A model generated the notes under the pieces. It was not told the origin of the DNA. It saw only the letters and a list, made by a program, of their open reading frames with translations, and ran no database searches. Positions 2,976 through 16,232 of a stretch of DNA of 64,000 bases are shown piece after piece; within the stretch, counting starts at the first letter, position 1; each line of letters starts with the position of its first letter. Origin of the DNA: Chitinophaga agri (GTDB lineage Bacteria; Bacteroidota; Bacteroidia; Chitinophagales; Chitinophagaceae); NCBI RefSeq assembly GCF_010093065.1, contig NZ_CP048113.1, forward strand, positions 6,404,001 through 6,468,000, read 5' to 3'. A program made the translations under genes and the position numbers.

Positions 2976-4697
2976 TTACATATTTTCTTGCAGCAGGCTG
3001 CCCATTATCTGAGCGGAAGCTGCCTCGCAGAAATCAAGCCCCGAGTAATCCGGGTTGAAGCCTCCAATAAAAGGCACGGTCATCACATAGATCCGTTCAT
3101 TGATGGCATTGAATTCATCCAACGCCTGAAATTGATCGTTAATAGCAATTCCGGGGACAGTTAGATAATATTGATCATCTTTGCTTACAGATACATTTAC
3201 TTGACCCTCGCGTTGAAGCCGCTGTCCTTCAGTTTGATCACGGAATTTGATTTTAGCACGGCTAAATGAATGATTAACAATAAGACTTTGATAGGGGATA
3301 TCTTCAAAGTTCAGATGTGGTTGCCCGATACAGTCTATAAAAAGGCCAAATCTGTCTTCTTTCGAATGGCCATTCTCATCCAGGTACTTATATATAGCTC
3401 CTTCTGATTCTCCTGGCCTTACTTCACTTTTTTCGCCAACGGCTATCATATCTAAACGTCCAGCATTATGAAGTGCAATTAAAGTTTCAGCTGAACTTTG
3501 TGGTACAAAAGCAATGACAATGGAGATTAAGGGCATCAGCACTTTTTGTAATCGCAGCGTATCTTCAGCAGAGAAATACTTGGCAGGGTAATTCATGGTG
3601 AAACTCAAAACGGCCAGCATTTCTTTCCAGTAGATCGATTCTTTTCTTTTTATTGATTTCTCTGCTTCTTTGTATTCGGCTTTCAAAAGTTCAAAAGGAT
3701 CCAACCGCTCTCTCAACTCCATCACATACTCCACAAATTCTTCCATTTTAAAGCTCCTGATCGCCTCATAAAATTCAGGATCCTGTCGCCTGATGCCTTC
3801 TTTAAAATTTTGTTCAAATACATAGTCTAAAGATAGGAAACCTTCATTGGACGCTCTATTCTCCAGTATCTGTTGTGGAGTTAATATTGTTCCCTTGCCA
3901 AGATGTGAATCCTCTAAATGGAAGCGGACTGCAGGTAATAATCCATTACGCGACATCATGGTAATTTTGAAATCCGGGCTATCGGCATTCACATCAAATG
4001 TCAGGATACCGTTCTCCTTCCTCGAAAACACACCATTGTGTTTGGCAAGGGTCCGGATCGCGTCAATTGCAGTTAGAGACGCTCCCCTGATAGCAATATG
4101 CTGATTGCATTGTTTGGATATCTTTACAGGTGGATAAGGAGAATCGAACCATCCTGGTATTTTACCCTCATATTTTTTAGGCCATAGATGTCCGGTACAA
4201 ATAATAATTTTATCATGTATGTATTTGGATCCATTAGATAGTACTACGCAAATAGTTCCACTTTTCGGATCATCAATAACATCATTGATAAGACTATTAT
4301 AATGAATAGTTGTGACTAAACCCTGTTCCCGGGCCTGTTTATGCAAAAGGCTGAACTGGTCGGTCAAATATTGACCAAATAGCAGGCGCGGTAAGACTTT
4401 ATAATCGTTGAACCGGTTAATATCAATATTATACTTATCTAAACTTGATTTAGGGAGTGTTTTCATCCATTCTGTAACTGACATTGTCAGTTTCGGAATT
4501 TCATTTGCAGACACATTTGTGATATGCTCATCCCCGGCTCCGCTGGAACTATAAGGCATGCCACTTCCCAGACAGGGGCCTTTCTCGTAAATTGTTACTG
4601 TAAAATGGTTGGCCTGCGATTCGACCAGACGCTTATACATAAAAAGGGCACTTGGCCCCCCACCAAGTATAGCTATAGAGCGTTTTTCCTGTTTCAA
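2976..4697 (-). CDS. FAD/NAD(P)-binding protein (NAD_binding_9 / YdhS type)
   Basis: A 573-residue cytosolic flavoprotein-like protein. The N-terminal dinucleotide fold is SIAILGGGPSALFMYKRL with the acidic end of strand 2 at TIYEKG, followed by GSGMPYSS and HITNVSANEIP, typical of the NAD_binding_9 family. Further nucleotide-binding elements are ICTGHLWPKKYEG and IAIRGASLTAIDAIRTLA, and the C-terminus has VPFIGGFNPDYSGLDFCEAAS. The substrate is unknown. Members of this family are annotated from context as hydroxylase- or oxidoreductase-like. It stands alone: the IS66 element lies downstream and a divergent peptidase gene upstream. The clan also holds Lys/Orn N-monooxygenases, but nothing here shows that activity, and a link to the nearby peptide cluster is not supported. 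Confidence 0.8.
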   Translation of the reverse strand: MKQEKRSIAILGGGPSALFMYKRLVESQANHFTVTIYEKGPCLGSGMPYSSSGAGDEHITNVSANEIPKLTMSVTEWMKTLPKSSLDKYNIDINRFNDYKVLPRLLFGQYLTDQFSLLHKQAREQGLVTTIHYNSLINDVIDDPKSGTICVVLSNGSKYIHDKIIICTGHLWPKKYEGKIPGWFDSPYPPVKISKQCNQHIAIRGASLTAIDAIRTLAKHNGVFSRKENGILTFDVNADSPDFKITMMSRNGLLPAVRFHLEDSHLGKGTILTPQQILENRASNEGFLSLDYVFEQNFKEGIRRQDPEFYEAIRSFKMEEFVEYVMELRERLDPFELLKAEYKEAEKSIKRKESIYWKEMLAVLSFTMNYPAKYFSAEDTLRLQKVLMPLISIVIAFVPQSSAETLIALHNAGRLDMIAVGEKSEVRPGESEGAIYKYLDENGHSKEDRFGLFIDCIGQPHLNFEDIPYQSLIVNHSFSRAKIKFRDQTEGQRLQREGQVNVSVSKDDQYYLTVPGIAINDQFQALDEFNAINERIYVMTVPFIGGFNPDYSGLDFCEAASAQIMGSLLQENM

Positions 4698-5045
4698 TTG
4701 CTTACTGTTTTTTTCGCTTTGTTTTTTTACTTTAACTATTTAATACTGCCGATTACCAATCAGGTAGACAAAAATGATGCGAGCTTATGAATTAACTGAA
4801 TCGACCCGTGATCAGGCCATTGCCAGCCATCCAACCGCAGAATACACCCTGTATTCTGCTAACCTGCACAAACTGTGTATATCTTGCGACATGTTTTACG
4901 AACAGAGTCGTGGAAAATAGCAGCATAATCTAAAAGAACAGGGATCTGATAACGCTGCATACCGCCTTGCCCAATTTAAATTAATCATTTACCTTTAGAA
5001 CAAGACCTGACACTAGTATATACATCTAAAACACCAGTTGATATA
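4698..5045. promoter_or_regulatory. Divergent intergenic region with a perfect hairpin
   Basis: No gene. It separates the divergent FAD-protein and peptidase genes, so it must hold both promoters, though I see no clear TAnnTTTG box. At 4837-4859 a 10-bp perfect stem (gcagaataca / tgtattctgc) closes a ccc loop. As no gene ends here it is more likely an operator or an untranslated-leader hairpin than a terminator. Confidence 0.4.
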
Positions 5046-6500
5046 TTGCTATCCTCAAAACGATATACTCTTTTGTTGATCTGTTCTTTTTATATGCAAA
5101 CAGTCTTCGCACAAAAAAACATCCTATTAAATGACCTCAGTCTCTTCAAAGGTATTTTGGAAAATGCGCATGCAGGACTGTATAAATACCATTCCCGTCA
5201 GCAGATAGACAGTATCTTCAACCATTATGCGAGCCAGATCAATGAAGAAACCACTACGCTGGCATATTACAAGTATCTGTCTGCGGTACTCTCATACGTA
5301 GGTAGCCTGCATGATGATATCTATCTTCCATCAGATGTCAAAGAGAAACTGGAAGCCGAAAGGACGTTTTTTCCCTATCCTGTGAAGATGATTGACGGCC
5401 GGCTACTTGTGAATACAACTGCCGGAGAGATCCCCCTGGGAGCGGAGATCGTTAGTATTAATGGCCGCAGTATCGAACAGATCTTACCCGATCTCTATAA
5501 GTATTACACGACGGATGGGGTGAATACTACGGGTAAGCAAATGGGCATTAATGCACGTTTTGGATGGTTCTACCGACTGGAGTACGGAGCAGTCAAGATG
5601 TTTGATATTGCATACCGGATCAATGAACAGGCATCTGTACAAACTATCAGACTGTCACCTGTGACCTGGGCAGATGTAATGCTTCTTTACAAAAGCCGTC
5701 ACTCACTGGCCTTCGATACGACCAATACGAAGACCTATTCCTTTAACATCATAGACGGCCTTAATACAGGCGTCTTAACCATTCCTAGCTTTTCCCTGGG
5801 CAATGAGCATTCCGCCAAGCATAAAGCGTATAAGCGCTTCTTAAAACGAACGTTTACTATACTGAGAGAAAAGCATGTCAGCAATCTGATAGTGGATATC
5901 CGGCACAACGGTGGTGGATCTGATCCTAATGATCTGCTGACTTTTTCTTACCTGGCTACGAAGCCATTCAGGGAGAATAGTGAAGCATTTACCATCTTCC
6001 AGAAGATCCCCTATCGTCAGTATTGTACAGATCCGCGCGCCGACAAACTTGATATACAAAGGAATTTCAGAAAGGAACATAATGTTTTCAACAACGGCAG
6101 ATATTTTCAGCATCCTAAATATAATCCTGTCTGGCAGGTAAATCCGCTGGCATTTTCAGGAAAGATCTACTTACTGGTGAGTCCTGCTGTTGCCTCCGCG
6201 GCATCACTGTTTGCCGCTATGATAAAAAGTGAAGGAGCTGCTACTGTTATTGGTGAAGAGACAATGGGCGGCTATTATGGTCATACCGGGCATAATAAGG
6301 TCAATTACCGGCTTCCCGGAACAGGCATTGCGTTCCGTATCTCTGTGGTCGATATTGAGCAGTTTGTTACCCCGAAGGAAAATATTCCTTTTGGTGTGGG
6401 TGTGCTTCCTGATATTACTGTCAGACAAACCCTCTCCGGTTTCATGAATAACCATGATACGGTGTTGGATACCACCCTGCGGCTGATTAAGAAGAAATGA
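5046..6500 (+). CDS. S41-family (tail-specific) peptidase, exported
   Basis: A 484-residue serine peptidase of the CtpA/Tsp (S41) family. The N-terminus, read from a TTG start, is a signal peptide (KRYTLLLICSFYMQTVFAQ). No ATG or other upstream start fits, since the next ATG lies inside the signal peptide. A PDZ-like segment around residues 120-150 includes GAEIVSINGRSIEQILPDL. The peptidase core has GVLTIPSFSLG, NLIVDIRHNGGGSDPNDL and LLVSPAVASAASLFAAMIKSEG, where the family nucleophile serine lies, then ATVIGEETMGGYYGHTG. It probably acts in the periplasm on an unknown substrate. It converges with the outer-membrane barrel gene, whose stop is only 6 bp away, so it is not in the RiPP operon. 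Confidence 0.85.
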   Translation: MLSSKRYTLLLICSFYMQTVFAQKNILLNDLSLFKGILENAHAGLYKYHSRQQIDSIFNHYASQINEETTTLAYYKYLSAVLSYVGSLHDDIYLPSDVKEKLEAERTFFPYPVKMIDGRLLVNTTAGEIPLGAEIVSINGRSIEQILPDLYKYYTTDGVNTTGKQMGINARFGWFYRLEYGAVKMFDIAYRINEQASVQTIRLSPVTWADVMLLYKSRHSLAFDTTNTKTYSFNIIDGLNTGVLTIPSFSLGNEHSAKHKAYKRFLKRTFTILREKHVSNLIVDIRHNGGGSDPNDLLTFSYLATKPFRENSEAFTIFQKIPYRQYCTDPRADKLDIQRNFRKEHNVFNNGRYFQHPKYNPVWQVNPLAFSGKIYLLVSPAVASAASLFAAMIKSEGAATVIGEETMGGYYGHTGHNKVNYRLPGTGIAFRISVVDIEQFVTPKENIPFGVGVLPDITVRQTLSGFMNNHDTVLDTTLRLIKKK

Positions 6501-6506
6501 TATAGT

Positions 6507-8972
6507 TTAATTCAATCCCTTTATACGTTTCAGCTCGTCCGTATTACTGGTTTTCTCCCTGCTTGTTTTTTTCTTTTGATTCCCAAATTTATAAGTCAGG
6601 TCAAAGGAGATGACCCTGCTGTCATTCCGGTTGGTAAACTCCTGATTTAAGTTCCCAATACGATTGATGCCGTTTCTGCGATAAATATAGAAGATGTCAC
6701 GAGCGGCGACCTTTAAAATGAGTTTCTTGTCAAACCAGCTTTTCCTATATCCCAGATCTACTTTGTAGCGCGAAAGGTTCTTTTTTATGCCATCTAATGT
6801 AGGCGAGCGATAGATTCCTGTCAGTAAAAGGGCGCTGTTCCCAGGTAAGGAAAACTCTGTAGTCAGGTTTGTGTTAACATTGATGATATTGTTCTTAAAT
6901 GCCTGCGTTTGGTAAAAAGAGGAGAACTCTTCATAGAAGATGTCCGCGTTACAGGACAGGTGCCACCAGTCAAAGAGGTCTTTGTCCAGTGACAGGCTTG
7001 TTCCCAGGCTGCGATAGCGGTTAAAGTTGCTGATACTTTCCTTTGTGACTTTCGTCGTATCATTCAGATAACTTAGATAGGTAAAGTAGTCTTTGGTATG
7101 GCTGTAACTGAAGGATACGAGAAATTCATCATTCAGCGAATATCCCAGTTCCAGCGCATTTGTAAACTCGGGTCTGAGCGATGTATTCCCCTGATAATAT
7201 GAGTAGGGAGAGTTGTAGAATATAAAAGGATTTAGATCCTCATAAGAAGGTCTGTTTATTCTTCTCCCGTAAGAGAAGTTGATCTGGTGCGATGCTCCCA
7301 ACTTCCTGCTAATAAAGAAAGAAGGGAAGAACTGAAGGTAATCATTTTTGTTGATGAGGTTTCCGGTGATCAGGTTGCCGGTATTATTTGTTTGCTCAGC
7401 TCTCAGACCGGCCTGTATCTCATAGGCACCGATCTTTTTATTTACATTAAAATAGGCAGCGTTGATATACTCGTCATAAATAAAGTGATTGGTCTTTCCA
7501 GTGTCTGTATGCCAGGAATCTCCGTATTTGTTATCAAACCGGATATCACTATCGGTTCTTACGATACTTGATTTTAACCCTGCCATAATAGTCATGTCCA
7601 TTTTGCTTACAGGATGTGTGTAGTCCATTTTTGCACTACCGATTTTAATGGATACCTCACTGTTATTCCTGAGTTGTTCCACCTCTCTTAATAACCCACC
7701 ATCCTGATCCATATAAGAGTTGCTGAAGAGCGCGTCGGTCGGTGCGGAGAACGTAGAGTAGTCGATATTGGTAGTCAGTTTCCGTCCCTTGTTATTAATG
7801 TTGAAGTTATGATGGAGGTTCCAGGAGAGATTGTTGTAATCAGATTGCTCGACGTTATAGACTCTCAGAGAAGAGTCCATTTTGTTCTGAATAAACTTCG
7901 TGTTGAAATCTTCTCTGGAATTACTTTTTAATATATCTCCTGACATAGAGATACCGATCAGCTGCTTTTTACCTATTTCATAGTCTAAACCGATGTTGAA
8001 ATTCTGAGAGGAATTATGCGCTTTGGTATGCCCGGTTTCATCAAATACCAGTTGGTCAATGATGCGTTTACTCGTATATTTTCCAAACCCTGTAGTATTG
8101 GATATATTATAATTGCCAAATAGATTGAGCCGGTTGACCTTGTAGTTAAGGATCACACCACCATTATACTTGGGATAAACACCAAAGCCAGCGGAGCCAT
8201 TGATACTGCCATTGAAACCGTCTACCTGCAACTTCTTGGTAACAATGTTAATAATGCCTGCGCTTCCGGCAGCATCATTCTGTGCAGATGGATTGGTTAG
8301 GATCTCTATCCGGGTGACGGCACCCGCCGGGAAATTCTGCAGTATACGCGTCAGGTCGGAAGAAGACAGGCTGCTGGGCCGTCCATTGATCATAATGGTG
8401 ACACCCTTCTTCCCTTTGATGGAAATAAGGTCATCAGTAACGGAAACGCCAGGCGCAGTCTGTAGCACATCCATGATGGAACCACCTGCTGACGCCGGAC
8501 TGCTTTCAACGTTTAGCACCAGTTTGTCGACCTTTCGCTCTATAAACTGTTTTTTAGTGACAACGGCAATCTCCTGCAGCGTTGTTACCCTTGTTGCAAG
8601 GTAGAGCGTATCTATATTGATATCCGAATTAATAATGGTCACCTTTTGTTGCAATCCCTCATGCATGATGTCTGAAAGCCTGATAATAAAGTGGCCAGTG
8701 TCAGCCACCTGGAAACTAAATTTTCCTGTGGAGTCACTGGTGGTACTTTTAATCTTCGTAAGAGGACTGGCATTGTAGAGCTCAATGGATACTGCACTGA
8801 CCGGTTTTTTACTGGTCTCATCGTATACATGTCCTTTTACCTGAAAGTTTTTATGCTGCGAATACGAAGGCGTGGTTCTTATCAGACCAGCCAGCGTCAT
8901 CAAAACACTGGTATATACAATTGTTTTTGTTTTGGTGAAACTATTAATCCGGGTCAGATTCATGTGGTGCAA
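6507..8972 (-). CDS. Outer membrane beta-barrel protein (OMP_b-brl_3 type)
   Basis: An 821-residue TonB-receptor-like protein. After a signal peptide ending near PSYSQ comes a CarboxypepD_reg-like domain (FQVKGHVYDETSKKPVSAVSI). A plug-like domain follows, with VLQTAPGVSVTDDLISIKGK, GVTIMINGRPSSL and GSAGIINIVTKK, and then a barrel rich in aromatic and Asn-containing beta strands ending SFDLTYKFGNQ. The fourth codon is also ATG and may be the true start. Either start lies inside the end of the upstream oxygenase gene (20-29 bp overlap), so translation is probably coupled. The coupling suggests it moves, binds or senses the product of the peptide cluster at the outer membrane. No downstream SusD-like partner is present. 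Family call is firm; substrate is inference. Confidence 0.85.
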   Translation of the reverse strand: MHHMNLTRINSFTKTKTIVYTSVLMTLAGLIRTTPSYSQHKNFQVKGHVYDETSKKPVSAVSIELYNASPLTKIKSTTSDSTGKFSFQVADTGHFIIRLSDIMHEGLQQKVTIINSDINIDTLYLATRVTTLQEIAVVTKKQFIERKVDKLVLNVESSPASAGGSIMDVLQTAPGVSVTDDLISIKGKKGVTIMINGRPSSLSSSDLTRILQNFPAGAVTRIEILTNPSAQNDAAGSAGIINIVTKKLQVDGFNGSINGSAGFGVYPKYNGGVILNYKVNRLNLFGNYNISNTTGFGKYTSKRIIDQLVFDETGHTKAHNSSQNFNIGLDYEIGKKQLIGISMSGDILKSNSREDFNTKFIQNKMDSSLRVYNVEQSDYNNLSWNLHHNFNINNKGRKLTTNIDYSTFSAPTDALFSNSYMDQDGGLLREVEQLRNNSEVSIKIGSAKMDYTHPVSKMDMTIMAGLKSSIVRTDSDIRFDNKYGDSWHTDTGKTNHFIYDEYINAAYFNVNKKIGAYEIQAGLRAEQTNNTGNLITGNLINKNDYLQFFPSFFISRKLGASHQINFSYGRRINRPSYEDLNPFIFYNSPYSYYQGNTSLRPEFTNALELGYSLNDEFLVSFSYSHTKDYFTYLSYLNDTTKVTKESISNFNRYRSLGTSLSLDKDLFDWWHLSCNADIFYEEFSSFYQTQAFKNNIINVNTNLTTEFSLPGNSALLLTGIYRSPTLDGIKKNLSRYKVDLGYRKSWFDKKLILKVAARDIFYIYRRNGINRIGNLNQEFTNRNDSRVISFDLTYKFGNQKKKTSREKTSNTDELKRIKGLN

Positions 8973-10293
8973 CTATGGTTATACTTCTTCGGTTATATAA
9001 TAATGAGAGAATATACAGCGCTACTTCCTTCGGCATTTCACTGAAGATCTCATGGGCAATATGAGAGATGTCCAGTGCCTCGCCTTCATTTAGTTTATCT
9101 ACCAGTGCCACGATCTCCGGATGATAGTTGAATTCTATTTTGGAGCCGCGGGCAAAGAGATGTAGTTTTCCTTCTTCTTCAACGTGTCTATAGAGTATCC
9201 TGAAAGGATGCAGCAATTGTACGATTTTATTGTCAAGATTCTCATAATTATCTTCGTCGTACGCAAATTCCTGAGTAAGAGATAACGGACAGGTAGACCA
9301 ACCGGCATTACTGAATAAAGAATACATTAGTTCTTCATATACGGTCTTCAGAAATTCAGGAAACGTTTTCTGTTTCAGCCGCTCATCCATTTTGAGTACT
9401 GCGCCGATGTCCTGAAAGCCATGCAGCTCATGCATGCTTTTTTCCGGCATGATAATATTCATATCTTCCATGTCCACATATTGCAGTTTCCAGGAGTCGA
9501 AGATATTACTCAGTACACGCCTCCTGGTATGATTGTCAAACCAGAGGGTTACACCAACGGAAAACTCATCAGACTGTCCTATATGGAACTGGTTCCATGG
9601 CATAAAATAGATATCACCCCGGTTGAATGGATAGTCCTTTGCATGAGGTAGCAGTTCTTCCAGCGGAACATCTGCTTTCTCTCTGCCATTCAGCAGTTGT
9701 TTAAAAAGCCCTTCTTCCCAGTTATACATTATTTTACCACCAGGCCCCAGGTGAAAATGGATCACGTTTGCGCCGGTATGATCCTGATGGATGCCTAACG
9801 GTGTCTTGCCATAGTTACCAATGAAAATAGTAGTATGAAGTCCATTCAGCGGAATGCCCATTTTCTTGAGTAATGGACTTGCATAAATAGCGAGTCTTTG
9901 CGCAAGCTCGCTCGAGAATTTCTCACCACTGTTAATGATCAGCCCGAATTTTTTATCTTCGAATATACGTTTAGCCCAGTCTTCAAGAGATTCTCCCAGG
10001 CCAGGAGGCTGCAGAAAAACTGTGTTTTCCAGTTGTTGCCAGTTCATTTTCTTACCATCCTGGTAGGCCCTGAACCCATATGCATCTGTTTTGAGTTTGC
10101 ATATCTCACGTATCGCTTTTACGACCATGGTTTCCATCTCACCGCATTCAGTGTCGGACATGACGTCTTTCACCACGGTAGTCGAAGTCAGGTTATTAGA
10201 TGTTTGCAGGAACTGCTCCCACCAGGCATCATCAATGTTATATTTAGTAGTAATTGTTTGTGCAGAGATCACTTCAGGGATTAAGGTGTCCAT
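8944..10293 (-). CDS. JmjC/cupin-8-like Fe(II)/2OG oxygenase with RRE-like C-terminus (copy B)
   Basis: 449 residues. The centre matches the JmjC/cupin-8 pattern: GIHQDHTGANVIHFHLGPGG with metal ligands His169 and Asp171 and a candidate 2-oxoglutarate lysine at 187, then GDIYFMPWNQFHIGQSDEF with distal His237, ending VTLWF as in JmjC hydroxylases. Residues about 365-445 (SKIEFNYHPEIVALVDKLNEG, then helices to LYILSLLYNRRSI) resemble a PqqD/RRE-type winged helix, the leader-binding module of RiPP enzymes. The winged helix of ribosomal oxygenases (YcfD/NO66 type) is the alternative. It lies 50 bp after its paralogue in the same operon and overlaps the barrel gene. The expected reaction is hydroxylation of a peptide side chain. 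Oxygenase fold is confident; peptide substrate is inferred from context. Confidence 0.75.
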   Translation of the reverse strand: MDTLIPEVISAQTITTKYNIDDAWWEQFLQTSNNLTSTTVVKDVMSDTECGEMETMVVKAIREICKLKTDAYGFRAYQDGKKMNWQQLENTVFLQPPGLGESLEDWAKRIFEDKKFGLIINSGEKFSSELAQRLAIYASPLLKKMGIPLNGLHTTIFIGNYGKTPLGIHQDHTGANVIHFHLGPGGKIMYNWEEGLFKQLLNGREKADVPLEELLPHAKDYPFNRGDIYFMPWNQFHIGQSDEFSVGVTLWFDNHTRRRVLSNIFDSWKLQYVDMEDMNIIMPEKSMHELHGFQDIGAVLKMDERLKQKTFPEFLKTVYEELMYSLFSNAGWSTCPLSLTQEFAYDEDNYENLDNKIVQLLHPFRILYRHVEEEGKLHLFARGSKIEFNYHPEIVALVDKLNEGEALDISHIAHEIFSEMPKEVALYILSLLYNRRSITIVAPHESDPD

Positions 10294-10343
10294 TTTAGTT
10301 AATTTTTCCAGGTTACAAAATTGATCATCAATTGTGCAGATTA

Positions 10344-11651
10344 TTAATGTAGGATCTGAATGCCTCTTCTGTTATACAACAGTGACAGGAAATAATAGCC
10401 GACTTCTTCCGGCCATTCCTTTGCAAGGTCAGCTATGAGATCGTTGCTTAGATAGCTATCACCTGCATTCAGTTTGTCAATGATGTTCAGAAATTCCGGA
10501 TGATAATTGATTTCAATTTTAGAGGCTCTGCAATAGATGATCAGCTTACTACCGCCTTCTGCCAGTGTATGATGCAGGACAAAAGGTGTTATTTTCTGGA
10601 TAGTCTTATCTCTTAGGAATTCAAAATCGTTTTCGTCATAGTTTATTTCCTGTTCCAGTGAGAGTGGCCTGGAACGCCAGCCGGCATTGCTGAATAATGC
10701 CCTGATGTATTCTTTATATGTATGTTGAAGGAACGCTTCAGTGGTCAGATTTTTAACGTCTTCATCAAAGTTGAAGAGTGCCTCTATCTCACTAAACCCC
10801 TGAAGGTTATTGATATCTTTTTCCGGTTTGGTGATGGTGTTATCTTCCTGGTTGATGTATTGACTCATGATAGAGCTCACGAGTTTATCCATCATTTTTT
10901 TACGTGGAAGATTATTGAACCATAATGAAACGCCAATAGACAGTTCATCGGAGTATCCGATATGAAATTTGTCCCATGGCATATAATAAATGTCTCCTTT
11001 CTTAAAAGGATATGCCGTAGCATGTGGCAGCATTTCCTCTATACCCATATAGTTTTGGGAGCCACCTAGTTTTTTGAATTCTTCCGCTTCCCAGTTATAC
11101 ATAATTTTTCCTCCGGGACCCAGATGAAAGTGAATAACGTTTTCTCCTTTATGGTCCTGATGAATACCTAAAGGAGTATATCCGTAGTTACCTATAAATA
11201 TTGTGATACACGTACCATTTACGGGCACGCCAATTTTTTCAAGTAAAGGGCTTACATACTTACCGATCATTTCAGCCATCTCCGGCGAAAACTTCTCTCC
11301 GTAATTCAATATGATACCAAACTTCATGTCTTTAAATGCTCTGGCTGCCCAGGTTTCAAAGCTTTCTCCCGGTAACGGTGGATACGGATAGACATGCTGC
11401 TTCAGATATTCCTCATTCATGCTTTCCGTGCCCTGGTAGAACCTGAAATCATAACTGCTGTTTTGACGATTGCAAATTTCTCTGACAGCACTGAGCGTCA
11501 TTTCGCTCATTGCTTCACACTCATTTTCCGACAGCACATCGGGAACGACAATCGTTTCTGTAAAGTTTTTACACTTCTCCAGAAAAAGGTCCCACCATTC
11601 AGCTGTTATCTTTTGGTCATTGGCTGCAATGACTAGTTTTTCAGTTAACAT
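10344..11651 (-). CDS. JmjC/cupin-8-like Fe(II)/2OG oxygenase with RRE-like C-terminus (copy A)
   Basis: 435 residues, a paralogue of the following gene along its whole length, with long shared stretches such as TPLGIHQDH, NVIHFHLGPGGKIMYNWE and LFSNAGW. Metal ligands are His164, Asp166 and distal His230 (GDIYYMPWDKFHIGYSDEL), with Lys182 as candidate 2-oxoglutarate contact. The C-terminal 80 residues (ASKIEINYHPEFLNIIDKLNAG to FLSLLYNRRGI) again look like a PqqD/RRE or winged-helix domain. Nothing suggests that either copy is degenerate, so the pair may act on different residues, act in sequence or form a heterodimer. It lies about 500 bp downstream of the Glu-Lys precursor gene on the same strand. 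The oxygenase family is well supported by motif; substrate and product are not known. Confidence 0.75.
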   Translation of the reverse strand: MLTEKLVIAANDQKITAEWWDLFLEKCKNFTETIVVPDVLSENECEAMSEMTLSAVREICNRQNSSYDFRFYQGTESMNEEYLKQHVYPYPPLPGESFETWAARAFKDMKFGIILNYGEKFSPEMAEMIGKYVSPLLEKIGVPVNGTCITIFIGNYGYTPLGIHQDHKGENVIHFHLGPGGKIMYNWEAEEFKKLGGSQNYMGIEEMLPHATAYPFKKGDIYYMPWDKFHIGYSDELSIGVSLWFNNLPRKKMMDKLVSSIMSQYINQEDNTITKPEKDINNLQGFSEIEALFNFDEDVKNLTTEAFLQHTYKEYIRALFSNAGWRSRPLSLEQEINYDENDFEFLRDKTIQKITPFVLHHTLAEGGSKLIIYCRASKIEINYHPEFLNIIDKLNAGDSYLSNDLIADLAKEWPEEVGYYFLSLLYNRRGIQILH

Positions 11652-11967
11652 AACACAATGTTTTTTTAATGCTAGGCAAGCTTAAAGGAGTTGAATGATC
11701 TATCAGATCAGAGATATAAAGAAGACAGCTATTGTTAGATGCGCTTCTTTTTCATGGCTGTAATGAATAGTGAAGTGTCCTTCTGATAAGGTGATCGGGA
11801 TTGTCCTGAATCAGCTGTATGATTGTTTCGGCATTTCATATTTTATTGTCACCTTGCTTTAACATAACAGGCTTACGGTTTGGCAATAGCAGCCGCGTTG
11901 CACTGTTTGTGCAGCAGGGTTAAATAAGTAAGTGGAGTAAAAGCATTATATGAAATGCTGCAAATAT

Positions 11968-12075
11968 TTAACTAGTATGTGTCAATGATGCTGGTTCAGG
12001 CTGTTGTTGCTTATAGAGGATATAGAGTAATGTTGTTCCCGTAATTTCCTTTTGGGCAATGCTCTTATTGGCCAT
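11968..12075 (-). CDS. Possible small ORF, 35 residues
   Basis: An ATG-initiated frame in the 500-bp gap between precursor and first oxygenase encodes MANKSIAQKEITGTTLLYIL followed by YKQQQPEPASLTHTS. It has no double-glycine site, no signal peptide and no family I recognise. It starts 34 bp after the strong hairpin that follows the precursor gene, on the same strand. It may be a second small cluster component or chance. I list it because small genes of such clusters are easily missed; support is weak. Confidence 0.22.
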   Translation of the reverse strand: MANKSIAQKEITGTTLLYILYKQQQPEPASLTHTS

Positions 12076-12108
12076 GAGTAAGCACTTTTAGGATTATCAG
12101 AGGGAGTA

Positions 12109-12134
12109 GGCAGATTGGCGAAAGCCAATCTGCC
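12109..12134 (-). terminator. Strong GNRA-like hairpin after the precursor gene
   Basis: An 11-bp perfect stem (ggcagattggc / gccaatctgcc) with loop gaaa lies 12 bp beyond the precursor stop. On the transcribed minus strand no U-run follows, so it is more likely a partial terminator or an mRNA-stabilising hairpin. It would let the precursor mRNA exceed that of the downstream oxygenases, a common arrangement in peptide operons. Confidence 0.6.
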
Positions 12135-12146
12135 AGTGTCTTAAGC

Positions 12147-12302
12147 TTATGCAGCTTGTTTCACTTTTTCTTTTTCTTTTTCTTTTTCTTTCTCAGCTGC
12201 AGCTAAGCCACCAACTAATTTTTCTTGCTCCAGTGGAGAAATAACTTTAGCGCCTAAGAAATCTTTTGGATTCATGTTCAAGGATTTTTTCTCTTGGTTC
12301 AT
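12147..12302 (-). CDS. Double-glycine precursor peptide with Glu-Lys repeat core
   Basis: A 51-residue gene. Residues 1-32 form a leader (MNQEKKSLNMNPKDF, then LGAKVISPLEQEKLVGG) with the spacing of Bacteroidetes GG leaders: hydrophobic residues at regular steps, an acidic turn, and Leu-Val-Gly-Gly. The core after GG is LAAAEKEKEKEKEKVKQAA, 19 residues, with five Glu-Lys units. It has no Cys, Ser or Thr, so lanthionine, thioether or azole chemistry is excluded; only Lys, Glu and Gln side chains are reactive. The repeat is a hexanucleotide (gaaaaa-type) run. Divergent to it is an exporter with a C39 peptidase, the enzyme that cuts after GG. Downstream are two oxygenases. This is read directly from the sequence; the role as precursor is strong inference. 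The product could be a bacteriocin, signal or metal-binding peptide. Confidence 0.78.
   Translation of the reverse strand: MNQEKKSLNMNPKDFLGAKVISPLEQEKLVGGLAAAEKEKEKEKEKVKQAA
12151..12192 (+). repeat. Hexanucleotide run encoding the Glu-Lys repeats
   Basis: On the plus strand tttttc is repeated through this stretch with slight decay at the ends. A unit is exactly two codons, so slippage would add or remove Glu-Lys pairs without shifting frame. Confidence 0.75.
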
Positions 12303-12340
12303 GAGGTAGAGTTTTGAGGGTAAATAAAATGGTTAACCTT

Positions 12341-12372
12341 ATAAAAATAGGTAAAGGTTTTTATTCAACAAA
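12341..12372 (-). promoter_or_regulatory. Probable promoter of the precursor operon
   Basis: On the minus strand TTTG is followed after 19 bases by TATTTTTA, close to the Bacteroidetes -33/-7 consensus TTTG and TAnnTTTG. It lies about 40 bp upstream of the precursor ATG. Match is by eye. Confidence 0.5.
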
Positions 12373-12507
12373 TTTTTTTTTATCGGAGATGGAATGATGT
12401 ATCCTCTGTAGTGCTTACTGGTAAATAGTTTCAGCCGATAATATTTTACTAACTGTTCCGATGATCTGAAATTTCAACTTTATAATAACTTTATGAATCA
12501 CTTTATG

Positions 12508-12515
12508 TACATTTG
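12508..12515 (+). promoter_or_regulatory. Probable -7 box of the exporter operon
   Basis: TACATTTG is a perfect TAnnTTTG box about 95 bp upstream of the exporter ATG. The -33 element is weak, only an AT-rich stretch. Together with the opposite promoter this makes a compact divergent control region for the cluster. Confidence 0.5.
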
Positions 12516-12610
12516 ATAATACCTGTTTTTTGAAGAGACCCGAAGAAGAAATTTAACCCACAATACAGGTTAACCGTTCATACAAGAGACCTTACAAAAC
12601 ATAATCTGAG

Positions 12611-14830
12611 ATGTTATTTAAGCCCACCTATTTCCCATATTATCCGCAGTATGATGCCAAAGACTGCGGCCCTGCGTGTGTCCGGATGATATCAAAGTTT
12701 TACGGGAAGGAGTTTTCCATATCTTACTTACGGGAACTTTGTAATATCGGAAAGGAGGGCGTCTCTGTATTAGGCATCAGCAATGCTGCAGATCAACTTG
12801 GCTTTAACAGCGTCGCACTAAAGGCCACATTCGCAACACTTGAACATCAGATCCAGGTTCCATTCATTGCACACTGGAAACAAAATCATTTTATAGTTGT
12901 ATACAAGATCACAAAAAATTATGTCTTTATAGCTGATCCGGATGCCGGCAAACTCAAGCTGAAAAAAGAAGATTTCCTCAGTTCCTGGATCAGCGGAAAG
13001 GAAGATGGTGAAGACTTTGGAGTTATCATCGTACTGGAACCTACATCTGCATTTCATGACAGGACTGATGAATCTTCGCAGCCGAGTCACGCGAAAACCG
13101 GACTGAGATTCTTATTAAGCCATTTCAGTCAGCATAAAAAAATGCTGATCAATCTCGGAATAGGTGTGATAGTAAGCACGGTGCTGCAGTTAATGTTTCC
13201 TTTCCTTACACAAAGTATAGTTGACATTGGCATCGGCAACAGGGATATCAATTATGTATACCTGATACTCTTCGGACAGATAACAATATTTGCCGGAGAG
13301 ACAGTGATCTCCCTTGTACAAAGCTGGGCACTGTTGTATATAGGCACGCGGGTCAACGTATCTATAATATCAGATTTTCTGAAGAAGCTTATCCGTAAAC
13401 CGGTGAAATATTTTGATACAAAGATGTCAGGCGACCTGCTGCAGCGTATCGATGATCACAAAAGAATAGAAGAGTTCCTTACAAATGGCACCTTCCGTTT
13501 TGTTCTTTCTATCATCAGCTTCTTCGTCTTTACCGGTTTACTTATGTATTACAGCATGATCATCTTCGCTGTATTCATTGGGGGCGGGGCTTTCTTTGTC
13601 GGATGGATCTATTATTTCCAGAAGAAGCGAAAGCAACTGGACTATAAGCGCTTTATTGAAATGGCAAACAATAAGGGAAAGCTGGTAGAGATCATCAATG
13701 GCATGCAGGAGATAAAGCTGCAGAATGCTGAACGACATAAACGTTGGGAATGGCAATCTATCCAGGCCAGATTGTTCCGTATCAATATAAAATACCTGAC
13801 CCTTGAACAGTTTCAGCGGGTAGGGGCGCAATCTATTAATACACTCAAGAACATTGCCGCTACGTTCATTTGTACCAGTCTTGTTATCGGTAATAAGATG
13901 ACACTGGGTGAAATGCTGGCGGTACAATTCATTGTCGGCGAACTGAACGTCCCTCTCGTCAACCTGCTTGAATTTTTAAATGCCTATCAGGATGCGCAGA
14001 TAAGTATTGAACGTATCGCTGAAATACATCTCTCCGAAGATGCGCCTGCAAAGGCGGCTGGAACCATCGCTGATAATGATGCCTTCAGGGAAAATTCTAT
14101 TCATATAAAAGACCTCAGTTTCAAGTATGAGGGCACGCACTATTTTAATGTGCTGAGTGGTGTCAACTTCAGCATTCCAAAGGGAAGGGTGACCGCTATT
14201 GTTGGATTGAGTGGTAGTGGAAAAACTACGCTCCTTAAACTGCTGCTGAAGTTTTACGAGCCCACCGGTGGGATCATTGCAGTCGGGAACCAGGATCTGG
14301 GGCTTGTGGATGAAGATTTCTGGAGAAGCAAATGCGGTGTTGTACTACAAGATGGTTTCATTTTTTCTGACACGATAGCAAAGAATATCGCAGTAGGCTT
14401 CGATGAGATCGATAAGAAAAGACTACTGAATGCCGTGAGAATGGCCAACATAAAAGAATTCATTGAGACCCTGCCACTCGGTTATAATACAAAAATCGGA
14501 ATAGATGGTATGGGCCTGAGCCAGGGCCAGAAACAACGCATCCTTATTGCAAGGGCTATCTACAAGAACCCGCAGTATATCTTTCTTGATGAGGCTACAA
14601 ATGCCCTTGATGCAAATAATGAGCGCACTATTATAGATAATCTCCAGCAGTTCTTCAAAGATAAGACAGTTGTGGTGGTCGCCCATCGCCTGAGTACCGT
14701 AAAAAATGCTGATCAGATCATCGTAATGGAAAAAGGCCGCATCATTGAATCAGGTAACCACAGTGAGCTGATCTCTCTGAAAGGCGCTTATTTCAATCTG
14801 GTAAGAAATCAACTGGAACTGGGCGTTTAA
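12611..14830 (+). CDS. C39-peptidase-containing ABC exporter (bacteriocin type)
   Basis: A 739-residue PCAT transporter. Residues 1-130 are a C39 peptidase: YDAKDCGPACV with catalytic Cys19, HWKQNHFIVVY with His93, and FIADPDAG with Asp109. A membrane domain follows (about residues 160-450) with five or six hydrophobic segments. The ATPase has Walker A GLSGSGKTT (about 530), signature LSQGQKQR (about 635), Walker B YIFLDEATNAL (about 657) and H-loop VVVVAHRLS. All catalytic residues are present. Such proteins cleave double-glycine leaders in the cytosol and push the core through the inner membrane. A GG precursor lies 309 bp away on the opposite strand. It is followed after 16 bp by an adaptor gene. 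The 739-residue length is normal. Confidence 0.93.
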   Translation: MLFKPTYFPYYPQYDAKDCGPACVRMISKFYGKEFSISYLRELCNIGKEGVSVLGISNAADQLGFNSVALKATFATLEHQIQVPFIAHWKQNHFIVVYKITKNYVFIADPDAGKLKLKKEDFLSSWISGKEDGEDFGVIIVLEPTSAFHDRTDESSQPSHAKTGLRFLLSHFSQHKKMLINLGIGVIVSTVLQLMFPFLTQSIVDIGIGNRDINYVYLILFGQITIFAGETVISLVQSWALLYIGTRVNVSIISDFLKKLIRKPVKYFDTKMSGDLLQRIDDHKRIEEFLTNGTFRFVLSIISFFVFTGLLMYYSMIIFAVFIGGGAFFVGWIYYFQKKRKQLDYKRFIEMANNKGKLVEIINGMQEIKLQNAERHKRWEWQSIQARLFRINIKYLTLEQFQRVGAQSINTLKNIAATFICTSLVIGNKMTLGEMLAVQFIVGELNVPLVNLLEFLNAYQDAQISIERIAEIHLSEDAPAKAAGTIADNDAFRENSIHIKDLSFKYEGTHYFNVLSGVNFSIPKGRVTAIVGLSGSGKTTLLKLLLKFYEPTGGIIAVGNQDLGLVDEDFWRSKCGVVLQDGFIFSDTIAKNIAVGFDEIDKKRLLNAVRMANIKEFIETLPLGYNTKIGIDGMGLSQGQKQRILIARAIYKNPQYIFLDEATNALDANNERTIIDNLQQFFKDKTVVVVAHRLSTVKNADQIIVMEKGRIIESGNHSELISLKGAYFNLVRNQLELGV

Positions 14831-14846
14831 ACTTAATGTAACTCCT

Positions 14847-15590
14847 ATGGCAATTGAAATGATGGAAGAGAATATCGAAATTAAAGATGGTGCTTCATAT
14901 GAAGTCCTTGACAGAACTCCGAAATGGCTGATGCGCTGGGGGGTAATGTCTGTTTGTTTGACGCTGTTTGTATTACTGGGACTTGTAGCAATCGTACCTT
15001 ACCATAGAAGGGTCAATGTTCCTGTACGGATCAGCGGAAGATCTCCTGGCTGGGTGGTTGCGCCGGTAACCGGTAAAGTAGTAAGTAATCGGCTGAAAGG
15101 CCGGGAACAGGTCAGCAACGGCGATACAATACTGGTATTGTCTGTGCCTGAGCAGGCCGGCTATACTTATATTACGGCTGCTGAAACAGGATATATCTAT
15201 TATGTGAATAATGCTCTTTTTGACATTACAAACGTAGTTAAGAACGATACCCTGCTTAAGATCTTGCCGGTATTGAATGATCAGGACAGCCTGATCGCAC
15301 TCGGCATCGCAGATGAGAAAATGTATAAATTGCTGGCCACCGTTGATAAAAGACCAGAAGTAAAGCTAAGTACTCCCGATGGCAAAAATATTATTATTAA
15401 AACGGGTACACTACATTTATCTGAGATACCAAACGCGATAAACGGTCATGTGCTGACTATTGGCGTGAATGGTAATGACCTGAAACAGCTGTCTCCAAAT
15501 GGAAGGATATACCAGGGCATGGAGAGTAAAGCCACTATTACAATTAAAAGTGGAAGTATGCTGAGATACATGCTCAACCGTGAAAAATGA
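14847..15590 (+). CDS. HlyD-like membrane adaptor of the peptide exporter
   Basis: 247 residues, short for a HlyD family protein. A single membrane anchor lies at about residues 32-52 (MSVCLTLFVLLGLVAIVPYH), followed by a biotinyl-lipoyl-like half (WVVAPVTGKVVSNRLKGREQVSNGDTILVL, broken here by no long coiled coil) and a beta-rich C-terminal end (GMESKATITIKSG). The missing helical hairpin means it probably cannot reach the outer membrane as HlyD does. Related short adaptors accompany C39 exporters in Bacteroidetes. It forms an operon with the exporter. Confidence 0.78.
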   Translation: MAIEMMEENIEIKDGASYEVLDRTPKWLMRWGVMSVCLTLFVLLGLVAIVPYHRRVNVPVRISGRSPGWVVAPVTGKVVSNRLKGREQVSNGDTILVLSVPEQAGYTYITAAETGYIYYVNNALFDITNVVKNDTLLKILPVLNDQDSLIALGIADEKMYKLLATVDKRPEVKLSTPDGKNIIIKTGTLHLSEIPNAINGHVLTIGVNGNDLKQLSPNGRIYQGMESKATITIKSGSMLRYMLNREK

Positions 15591-15734
15591 AGCGGTTGAT
15601 ACGCATACTTGTTAGTTTAACACTAACTACAATTGTCAGTCTGCGAATTACAAAAACTGAAAGGATATCCTGAAATAAACAGTAAACTTGCAGTATATGT
15701 ATCATGGACTGAACAATAGCACGAAGACGTATTT

Positions 15735-16232
15735 ATGGAGCTCCTTTTAGACATACTCATTCCCTCCGGTGTGAACATTCCTGGTATCTTATTTAAAGTA
15801 CCCCTATATGAATGGCAGGGTGAAAGTTATGCTCAGGGGCCGCCAGAAGCCAGTTTTGGCACTAATTATAAACTTGTTTATACACAGGTGCATAGTTTTG
15901 TGCAACAAAATATTCCTGCCACGTACGCCGCTATTCAGTGGCAGCATGTAAGCGTAAAAGGCCCGGGACTTGATCTATATACCACAAAATTACGGATGGA
16001 TTTCCCGGATGATGAAGAGCCTGAAGATCCCGAAGAACAAAATTATAAGCTGACTGACCTGCTGCACGCCATGTGTGCAGGCAATAAATGGATTGTTGTC
16101 ATTGATAACGACGAACCATTTGAAGTAATGCCGGCCGGCAGCCTTTCGCATGTAATTTCGGCCCTGAATGATGTTATAAAGGGAAATATATCAGAAAACG
16201 GATTCCTTATATGTGGGGAAGGTAGTGAATGA
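15735..16232 (+). CDS. Hypothetical acidic protein, 165 residues
   Basis: I do not recognise this protein. It lacks a signal peptide or membrane segment, begins MELLLDILIPSGVNIPGIL, has an acidic linker (FPDDEEPEDPEEQ, about residues 94-106) and a conserved-looking C-terminal half (HAMCAGNKWIVVIDNDEPF). The gene is 144 bp downstream of the HlyD-like gene on the same strand, so it may be the last gene of the exporter operon. A role such as immunity or regulation of the peptide is possible but unsupported. Confidence 0.55.
   Translation: MELLLDILIPSGVNIPGILFKVPLYEWQGESYAQGPPEASFGTNYKLVYTQVHSFVQQNIPATYAAIQWQHVSVKGPGLDLYTTKLRMDFPDDEEPEDPEEQNYKLTDLLHAMCAGNKWIVVIDNDEPFEVMPAGSLSHVISALNDVIKGNISENGFLICGEGSE

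Follow-up and report, generated by a model that had tools for sequence, protein, structure and literature searches.

What is made by a compact group of genes in Chitinophaga agri in which a short peptide with a Glu-Lys repeat stands beside two predicted oxygenases and a peptide exporter? The group lies in a window of 64,000 nucleotides (nt), by which we mean the whole stretch of DNA analyzed, in a 7.97-Mb genome that forms a single contig. Genes for a precursor peptide, the paralogous oxygenases OxyA and OxyB, and an outer-membrane beta-barrel protein are on the minus strand, and a C39 exporter, an adaptor, and a 165-amino-acid (aa) protein face away on the plus strand. A sequence-only reading of this DNA had listed a 51-aa double-glycine (GG) precursor, two HxD...H paralogues, an overlapping barrel gene, and a divergent C39 exporter with its adaptor, and each of these is present where it had been placed. 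It had also proposed a system for a ribosomally synthesized and post-translationally modified peptide (RiPP), and the combination of GG leader, JmjC-type oxygenases, and C39 exporter is indeed conserved as a unit. We put at roughly two in three the probability that this is a RiPP cassette with a ribosomal-oxygenase-like JmjC enzyme as its predicted maturase, in which the leader would be bound, the core hydroxylated, and the product cut at GG and exported by the C39 protein.

One-genome-per-species contigs were scanned and gave 43 loci, which with the window make 44; a Cupin_8 locus (L001) was left out of this set. The 43 are mostly from Bacteroidota (Niastella, Chitinophaga, Pedobacter, Chryseobacterium, Flavobacterium, Aquimarina, Kordia, Zobellia, Riemerella, and others), with a few from Pseudomonadota (Chromobacterium, Paucibacter, and Massilia). 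In 40 of the 44 loci there is a GG precursor whose leader reads FLxxxxLSPLExxxxxGG or nearly so: 38 were identified by the strict leader pattern, and L024 (leader readable, core partly masked in the record) and L034 (leader reads PAEE, found by eye) were added. The four loci without a counted precursor are L020 and L033 (in both of which the contig stops a little upstream), L040 (on a short contig), and L044 (broken frame). A C39 exporter match is likewise found in 40 of 44 (missing in L015, L034, L040, and L044). The distance from each of 53 pattern-matched precursors to an oxygenase gene does not exceed 886 nt (median 123), and in compact Chryseobacterium loci the precursor, oxygenase, and exporter genes are side by side. 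An encoded precursor made of leader and core and linked to a putative modifying enzyme, the arrangement by which a RiPP locus is recognized, is thus what 40 of 44 loci contain. The earlier suggestion to seek the oxygenase family beside GG-leader frames in other Bacteroidota was borne out in these same loci, with cores that vary. Oxygenase, GG precursor, and C39 exporter form a conserved cassette.

A profile search of a protein database found 79 precursors, including that of the window. Among 173 Chryseobacterium genomes, 16 have the oxygenase, and the leader is alongside in all 16; 11 of these repeat known leader/core combinations (some are probably the same genomes) and five are new, one new core (L064) containing TVTVTVTVTVTVTV. 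Measured with an oxygenase profile from a 51-sequence alignment, prevalence was 2/395 in a draw from the phylum and 3/294 in the window's own family (its own genome included in both), 7/299 in the family of the Kordia genome, where three belong to a distant subfamily or are fragments, and 3/398 in the phylum of the Chromobacterium genome, two of them distant; some of these genomes probably coincide with those of loci found before (L053 with L028, L054 with L002) and so are not independent of them. In the C. agri genome, the precursor/leader profile matches one place at E <= 1 (E 1.9e-17), and the oxygenase profile matches only OxyA and OxyB.

The window precursor consists of the leader MNQEKKSLNMNPKDFLGAKVISPLEQEKLVGG and the core LAAAEKEKEKEKEKVKQAA. 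Across 37 precursors, F15 is nearly invariant and L16, G31, and G32 are invariant. A first GG pattern missed this precursor family, and the leader pattern was used instead; NCBIfam, searched with the 37, returned three families, each matched by a single precursor (best E 0.021). The cores include EKEKEKEKEK in the window and Niastella, VKVKVKVKIK in Aquimarina, VRVVRVVQQVQRV in Chryseobacterium, poly-Gln runs in Kordia, Riemerella, and others, HHHDHD in Chitinophaga, and HEDHDHVH and VHTDEDHVHVH in Chromobacterium, with KTVRTVKTVVDVVTTV, VKETVKETVTETN, VRVTERVKVTERVRVTVRK, and KQKQKQ as further cores of the family. The types seen are Glu-Lys, Val-Lys, Val-Thr, Val-Arg-Gln, poly-Gln, Lys-Gln, Cys-Lys, and His-Asp. 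A Tenacibaculum locus (L026) carries six precursors, of which L026:9632-9784 has the Cys-Lys core TTKCKCKCKCK. In one source, two Chromobacterium precursors (P0180 and P0187) are labeled 'Benenodin family lasso peptide', a name not suggested by their sequences.

This diversity bears on what the sequence-only reading had taken as defining, namely, a Glu-Lys core hydroxylated on Lys or Glu. Homologous clusters without an EK-type precursor, which it had named as grounds for refutation, are exactly what we found, with poly-Gln, Val-Thr, Val-Arg-Gln, and His-Asp cores, and Glu-Lys is rejected as the defining core. Only the EK-specific version falls, because leader, enzyme, and exporter are kept and it is the core that changes from one enzyme clade to another. 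Its description of a core free of Cys, Ser, and Thr fits the window, whose core offers none of these lanthipeptide and azole substrate residues, and does not extend to the family, where Ser or Thr occurs in 92 of 113 distinct cores and Cys in 4. At least three of K, R, Q, and H combined occur in 103 of the 113, and at least three of V, I, and T in 100. A single common target residue is rejected, as no one residue is present in all 113.

What the cores share is their form. Compared with random protein segments from the same loci, 36 of 53 cores fall in the lowest 5% of entropy. For 29 less-redundant cores, on which the lag statistics were computed, identity at lag 2 was 170 against an expected 88.9 (z 10.8), or 116 against 59.2 without the poly-Gln cores (z 8.6). 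Lag 4 was also raised (z 6.9), as expected from a period of two, and lag 3 was raised with poly-Gln (z 4.1) but not without (z 0.7). The leaders of the same peptides showed no lag-2 excess (z -0.8) but did show one at lag 5 (z 4.7). The cores are alike in being of low complexity and in repeating, on average, every two residues, and have no residue in common. Pure DNA slippage is not favored as an origin for the repeats, since their codons are a mixture of synonyms: each of the six unmasked poly-Gln cores listed uses both CAA and CAG. The repeat of the window core, however, is nearly pure GAA-AAA at the DNA level.

The model of OxyA (pLDDT 92.9) is a double-stranded beta-helix with an HxD...H iron site, and its best fold matches are the ribosomal oxygenases (ROX) YcfD, NO66, and MINA53, with which it shares the order of a JmjC domain followed by a C-terminal winged helix. 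H164, D166, and H230 (OxyA numbering) are invariant in 51 of 51 rows of the alignment that includes OxyA and OxyB, and the triad is intact in 59 of 60 locus oxygenases, the exception (L040_2720) being on a very long branch. There are 239 OxyA-like proteins at E <= 0.001. Pfam JmjC and cupin models gave no match to OxyA or OxyB at E <= 0.1, and a search of PDB sequences gave none for the single protein and one for the profile at E 0.28; JmjC_2 weakly matched 12 of 51 relatives (E <= 0.01, best 2.1e-4). We use the JmjC label because of the fold and these weak matches in relatives.

Modeled alone, the C-terminal domain of OxyA (pLDDT 93.7) has the element order E E E E H H H E. This contains the three strands followed by three helices that define a RiPP recognition element (RRE) in the available passages of PMC12710340, plus one extra strand at each end. 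RREs top the Foldseek list for the domain (E 3.0e-3 to 2.9e-2), and ROX winged helices are resembled too; a Pfam scan of the domain alone pointed to no family convincingly, the best match, in one of the 27 members, having E 0.01. Since the modeled domain is like both the ROX winged helix and an RRE, the oxygenase may have a leader-binding domain of its own.

Core and enzyme also vary together. On an oxygenase tree of 60 rows, 56 with a core label and two L044 frames left out, core class changes 10 times versus a shuffle mean of 31.9, and 0 of 200 shuffles were as low. Poly-Gln occupies one side of a single branch (SH-aLRT 96), and His/Asp cores, with 2 changes, unite Chitinophaga with Chromobacterium and Paucibacter across phyla. 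The VTI class (6 changes) and 'other' (5, no better than shuffled, 71/500) are loose classes on account of these counts. Core tracks enzyme even within genera, as in Chitinophaga (KE in L004 versus HD in L030 and L031) and Chryseobacterium (VRQ versus poly-Gln in L029), and Aquimarina aggregata has two clusters, one of the KV type (L012) and one with poly-Gln (L042). Core type follows oxygenase clade, which is an association and not proof of specificity. Residue 157 is Asp in 14/15 His-type enzymes and Gly in 15/17 KE, 11/12 VTI, and 6/6 poly-Gln enzymes; residue 226 is Glu in 14/15 His-type enzymes and Trp in 17/17 KE and 11/12 VTI enzymes, and is mixed in poly-Gln. Both are near the iron ligands and are candidate determinants of which residue the enzyme selects, though common ancestry would be a simple alternative explanation.

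Together these results suggest the following pathway. The ribosome makes a precursor of about 50 aa, in which the leader is conserved and the repetitive core varies, as the sequences show directly. The RRE-like winged helix of OxyA and OxyB would bind the leader, a role suggested by fold, leader conservation, and gene linkage, and the JmjC domain, with Fe(II), O2, and 2-oxoglutarate, would hydroxylate repeated core residues. From the two-residue periodicity, we suggest that the core lies extended in the active site, with every second residue presented. The target in the window is most likely Lys, at C-3 if the enzymes resemble characterized ribosomal oxygenases, which hydroxylate C-3 of Arg or His according to the parts of PMC4543633 seen; by this likeness the hydroxyl may be at the beta carbon. 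OxyA and OxyB may divide positions or residues between them. Judging from protein families, the C39 domain would cut after GG, exporter and adaptor would carry the product to the periplasm, and the barrel protein would let it out or take it up. The most natural product would be an exported zwitterionic or amphipathic strand-like peptide. For its alternating-charge peptide, the sequence-only reading had suggested a possible chelating or antimicrobial role.

Several observations weigh against this reading. A distant oxygenase subfamily (L084:8091-9320 and L085:7778-9808) has no recognized precursor or C39 gene in the stretches read, and linkage to a precursor thus characterizes the main clade without extending to all oxygenase homologues. 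Many cores are individually not significant at lag 2, and that of L052 is non-repetitive. By E-value the likeness to RREs is weak (best 3.0e-3, with no match at <= 0.001), and the winged helix is a common fold. The core classes were defined after the cores had been seen; moreover, neighboring genes are co-inherited and near-copies cluster, so the co-variation of core and enzyme may be mere co-inheritance. Finally, BipG, a JmjC RiPP enzyme, acts on the gamma position of ornithine and not on C-3, according to the portions of PMC12707348 consulted. A more specific proposal, that an RRE-bearing, ROX-like JmjC enzyme hydroxylates every second residue of a strand-like core, with the target (Lys, His, Gln, or Val/Thr) set by clade, and that the ROX winged helix and the RRE share ancestry, is tentative and, in our view, rather doubtful.

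Other explanations should be considered. GG leaders and C39 exporters serve unmodified peptides too, and with ribosomal oxygenases as the nearest folds, the exported peptide could be an unmodified one of the class II bacteriocin or pheromone type, while the oxygenases act elsewhere, e.g., on a ribosomal protein for self-protection. This would leave unexplained why an oxygenase gene adjoins the precursor in 40 of 44 loci, why core type shifts with enzyme clade, and why the C-terminal domain is RRE-like, and we consider it unlikely; to our knowledge, repetitive cores are also untypical of class II bacteriocins. The product might instead be a ribosomal metallophore, in which hydroxylated His, Asp, or Lys binds metal and the barrel re-imports the complex. 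The barrel does have features of TonB-dependent receptors (Plug and TonB_dep_Rec_b-barrel), and cores rich in His and Asp occur in Chitinophaga, Chromobacterium, and Paucibacter, but poly-Gln and Val-Thr cores chelate poorly and a related barrel gene is present in only 26 of 44 loci, with none seen in five VRQ Chryseobacterium loci (L006, L007, L010, L011, and L013), which makes this idea improbable as well.

It is also conceivable, though we give it little weight, that another enzyme (an ATP-grasp ligase, a SPASM enzyme, or an acyltransferase) crosslinks or acylates the peptide to give the mature product and that hydroxylation is only tailoring. A Glu/Lys core would suit omega-amide formation, the L052 set adjoins grasp-with-spasm genes, and a family of 215- to 236-aa proteins with a weak FeeM match flanks seven loci. 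Yet poly-Gln and Val-Thr cores have no Glu-Lys pair, and neither the cassette of the window nor the compact Chryseobacterium loci showed a recognizable gene of this kind; the search did not extend to maturases encoded elsewhere in the genome. The hydroxylating cassette remains our preferred interpretation.

How does it compare with known systems? The ROX proteins (YcfD, also called RoxA, NO66, and MINA53) are 10-14% identical to OxyA over top-ranked matches; unlike them, the OxyA family is encoded with GG precursors and C39 exporters, and its substrates would be secreted peptides and not ribosomal proteins. Gene linkage points to the precursor, not a ribosomal protein, as substrate of the predicted oxygenases. 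A JmjC-type enzyme that hydroxylates a RiPP core is described for biphenomycin (BipG/BpmG and the cupin-like PbsQ) in the available parts of PMC12707348 and PMC12257519, the likeness being one of description only. There, as far as these parts tell, the hydroxylase performs one tailoring step, on ornithine, among MNIO, B12-rSAM, and arginase enzymes, whereas the OxyA type is the only recognized recurrent maturase of its cassette. JmjC proteins (PF08007) fused to an RRE-like fold, with nearest bacterial homologues in RiPP-like contexts, are reported in the 2025 paper PMC12710340, whose accessible passages describe no precursor, core, or cassette; these fusions are likely the same family as OxyA. 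Bacteroidota graspetides (grasp-with-spasm) have GG leaders, fast-changing precursors, and, in some loci, PF14905 barrels that are proposed to mediate export (PMC8939145, in the sections available). Unlike them, the window cassette has no ATP-grasp or SPASM gene recognized in general family scans. In L052, from the window's own family, an oxygenase, a C39 exporter, and a GG precursor (3979-9939) stand beside ATP-grasp and SPASM genes (TIGR04192 and TIGR04193), the only neighborhood with an ATP-grasp ligase by the precursor. It is a possible hybrid graspetide/JmjC locus, and the oxygenase can sit with graspetide machinery. We found no description of this cassette class among the matches listed in the open full-text literature (PMC), subscription papers being mostly outside the search, and the cassette looks like a little-described family of modified peptides.

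Table 1. Features of the cassette and its flanks, in window coordinates
Feature	Position	Strand	Basis or remark
Precursor peptide gene, 51 aa	12147..12302	-	Sole precursor-profile match in genome; same leader kind in 40/44 loci
Leader, residues 1-32, ending in GG cleavage site	12207..12302	-	Residue conservation in 37 precursors
Core, residues 33-51, EK repeat	12150..12206	-	Lag-2 repeat reached in 0/2000 shuffles of window core
OxyA, ribosomal-oxygenase-like JmjC protein, 435 aa	10344..11651	-	Homologues, model, folds
HxD motif of OxyA (H164, D166), iron ligands	11154..11162	-	Invariant in 51-sequence alignment
H230 of OxyA, distal iron ligand	10962..10964	-	Invariant in 51-sequence alignment
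RRE-like C-terminal winged-helix domain of OxyA, residues 340-435	10347..10634	-	Model pLDDT 93.7 and fold matches
OxyB, OxyA paralogue, 449 aa	8944..10293	-	RRE-like domain at about 8947-9255
Outer-membrane beta-barrel protein	6507..8972	-	OMP_b-brl_3 with plug and CarboxypepD_reg domains; likely ATG at 8963
C39 peptidase-ABC exporter, 739 aa	12611..14830	+	Peptidase_C39 E 1.7e-37
Short HlyD-like adaptor, 247 aa	14847..15590	+	Clusters with proteins of four other loci
165-aa protein 3' of adaptor	15735..16232	+	Cassette membership unsure
S41-family peptidase	5046..6500	+	Cassette membership unsure; adjoins cassette

The exporter combines C39 peptidase, ABC membrane, and ATPase domains and scores 416.7 bits against bacteriocin_ABC TIGR01193, under the cut-off of 523.85. 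The adaptor matches HlyD_3 below threshold (E 0.061), and its cluster-mate in L018 does so at E 1.7e-9. Counted from its likely ATG, the barrel gene shares 20 nt with the upstream OxyB gene; its product matches OMP_b-brl_3 at E 2.5e-100, along with the two TonB-related Pfam families mentioned above. The 165-aa protein has no family match and no relative in the 43 loci at E 1e-5. A close relative of the S41-family peptidase, perhaps a processing protease, is next to the cassette in L004 only (E 1e-154).

Outside the window, the 215- to 236-aa family lies just upstream of the cassette in L007, L010, L011, L012, L023, L026, and L028 (four genera), mostly adjoins a LuxR-type regulator, and may acylate or signal; one member weakly matches FeeM, an N-acyl amino acid synthase (E 0.0011, below cut-off), and the other tested member does not. 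A family of 116- to 143-aa proteins is found inside the cassette in nine loci (e.g., L005:12599-12964, L022:11983-12351, and L042:11332-11682), with no convincing Pfam match in three members tested. Among distant oxygenases, that of L085 adjoins an Asp_Arg_Hydrox gene, and in L091:6273-11334 (Pseudomonadota) an 828-aa frame with two oxygenase matches is followed by an 862-aa frame, with no precursor recognized.

If the interpretation is correct, it adds a RiPP class with one recognizable type of maturase, whose cores (EK, KV, TV, poly-Gln, and HD repeats) would be unpredicted by usual RiPP logic and easily missed by mining for Cys, Ser, and Thr. The natural pairs of enzyme and core would allow residue selection by JmjC hydroxylases to be tested directly, and the RRE-like winged helix is a testable link from ribosomal oxygenases to RiPP biosynthesis. 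Should the winged helix and the RRE prove to share ancestry, ribosome hydroxylation would be linked to peptide natural products.

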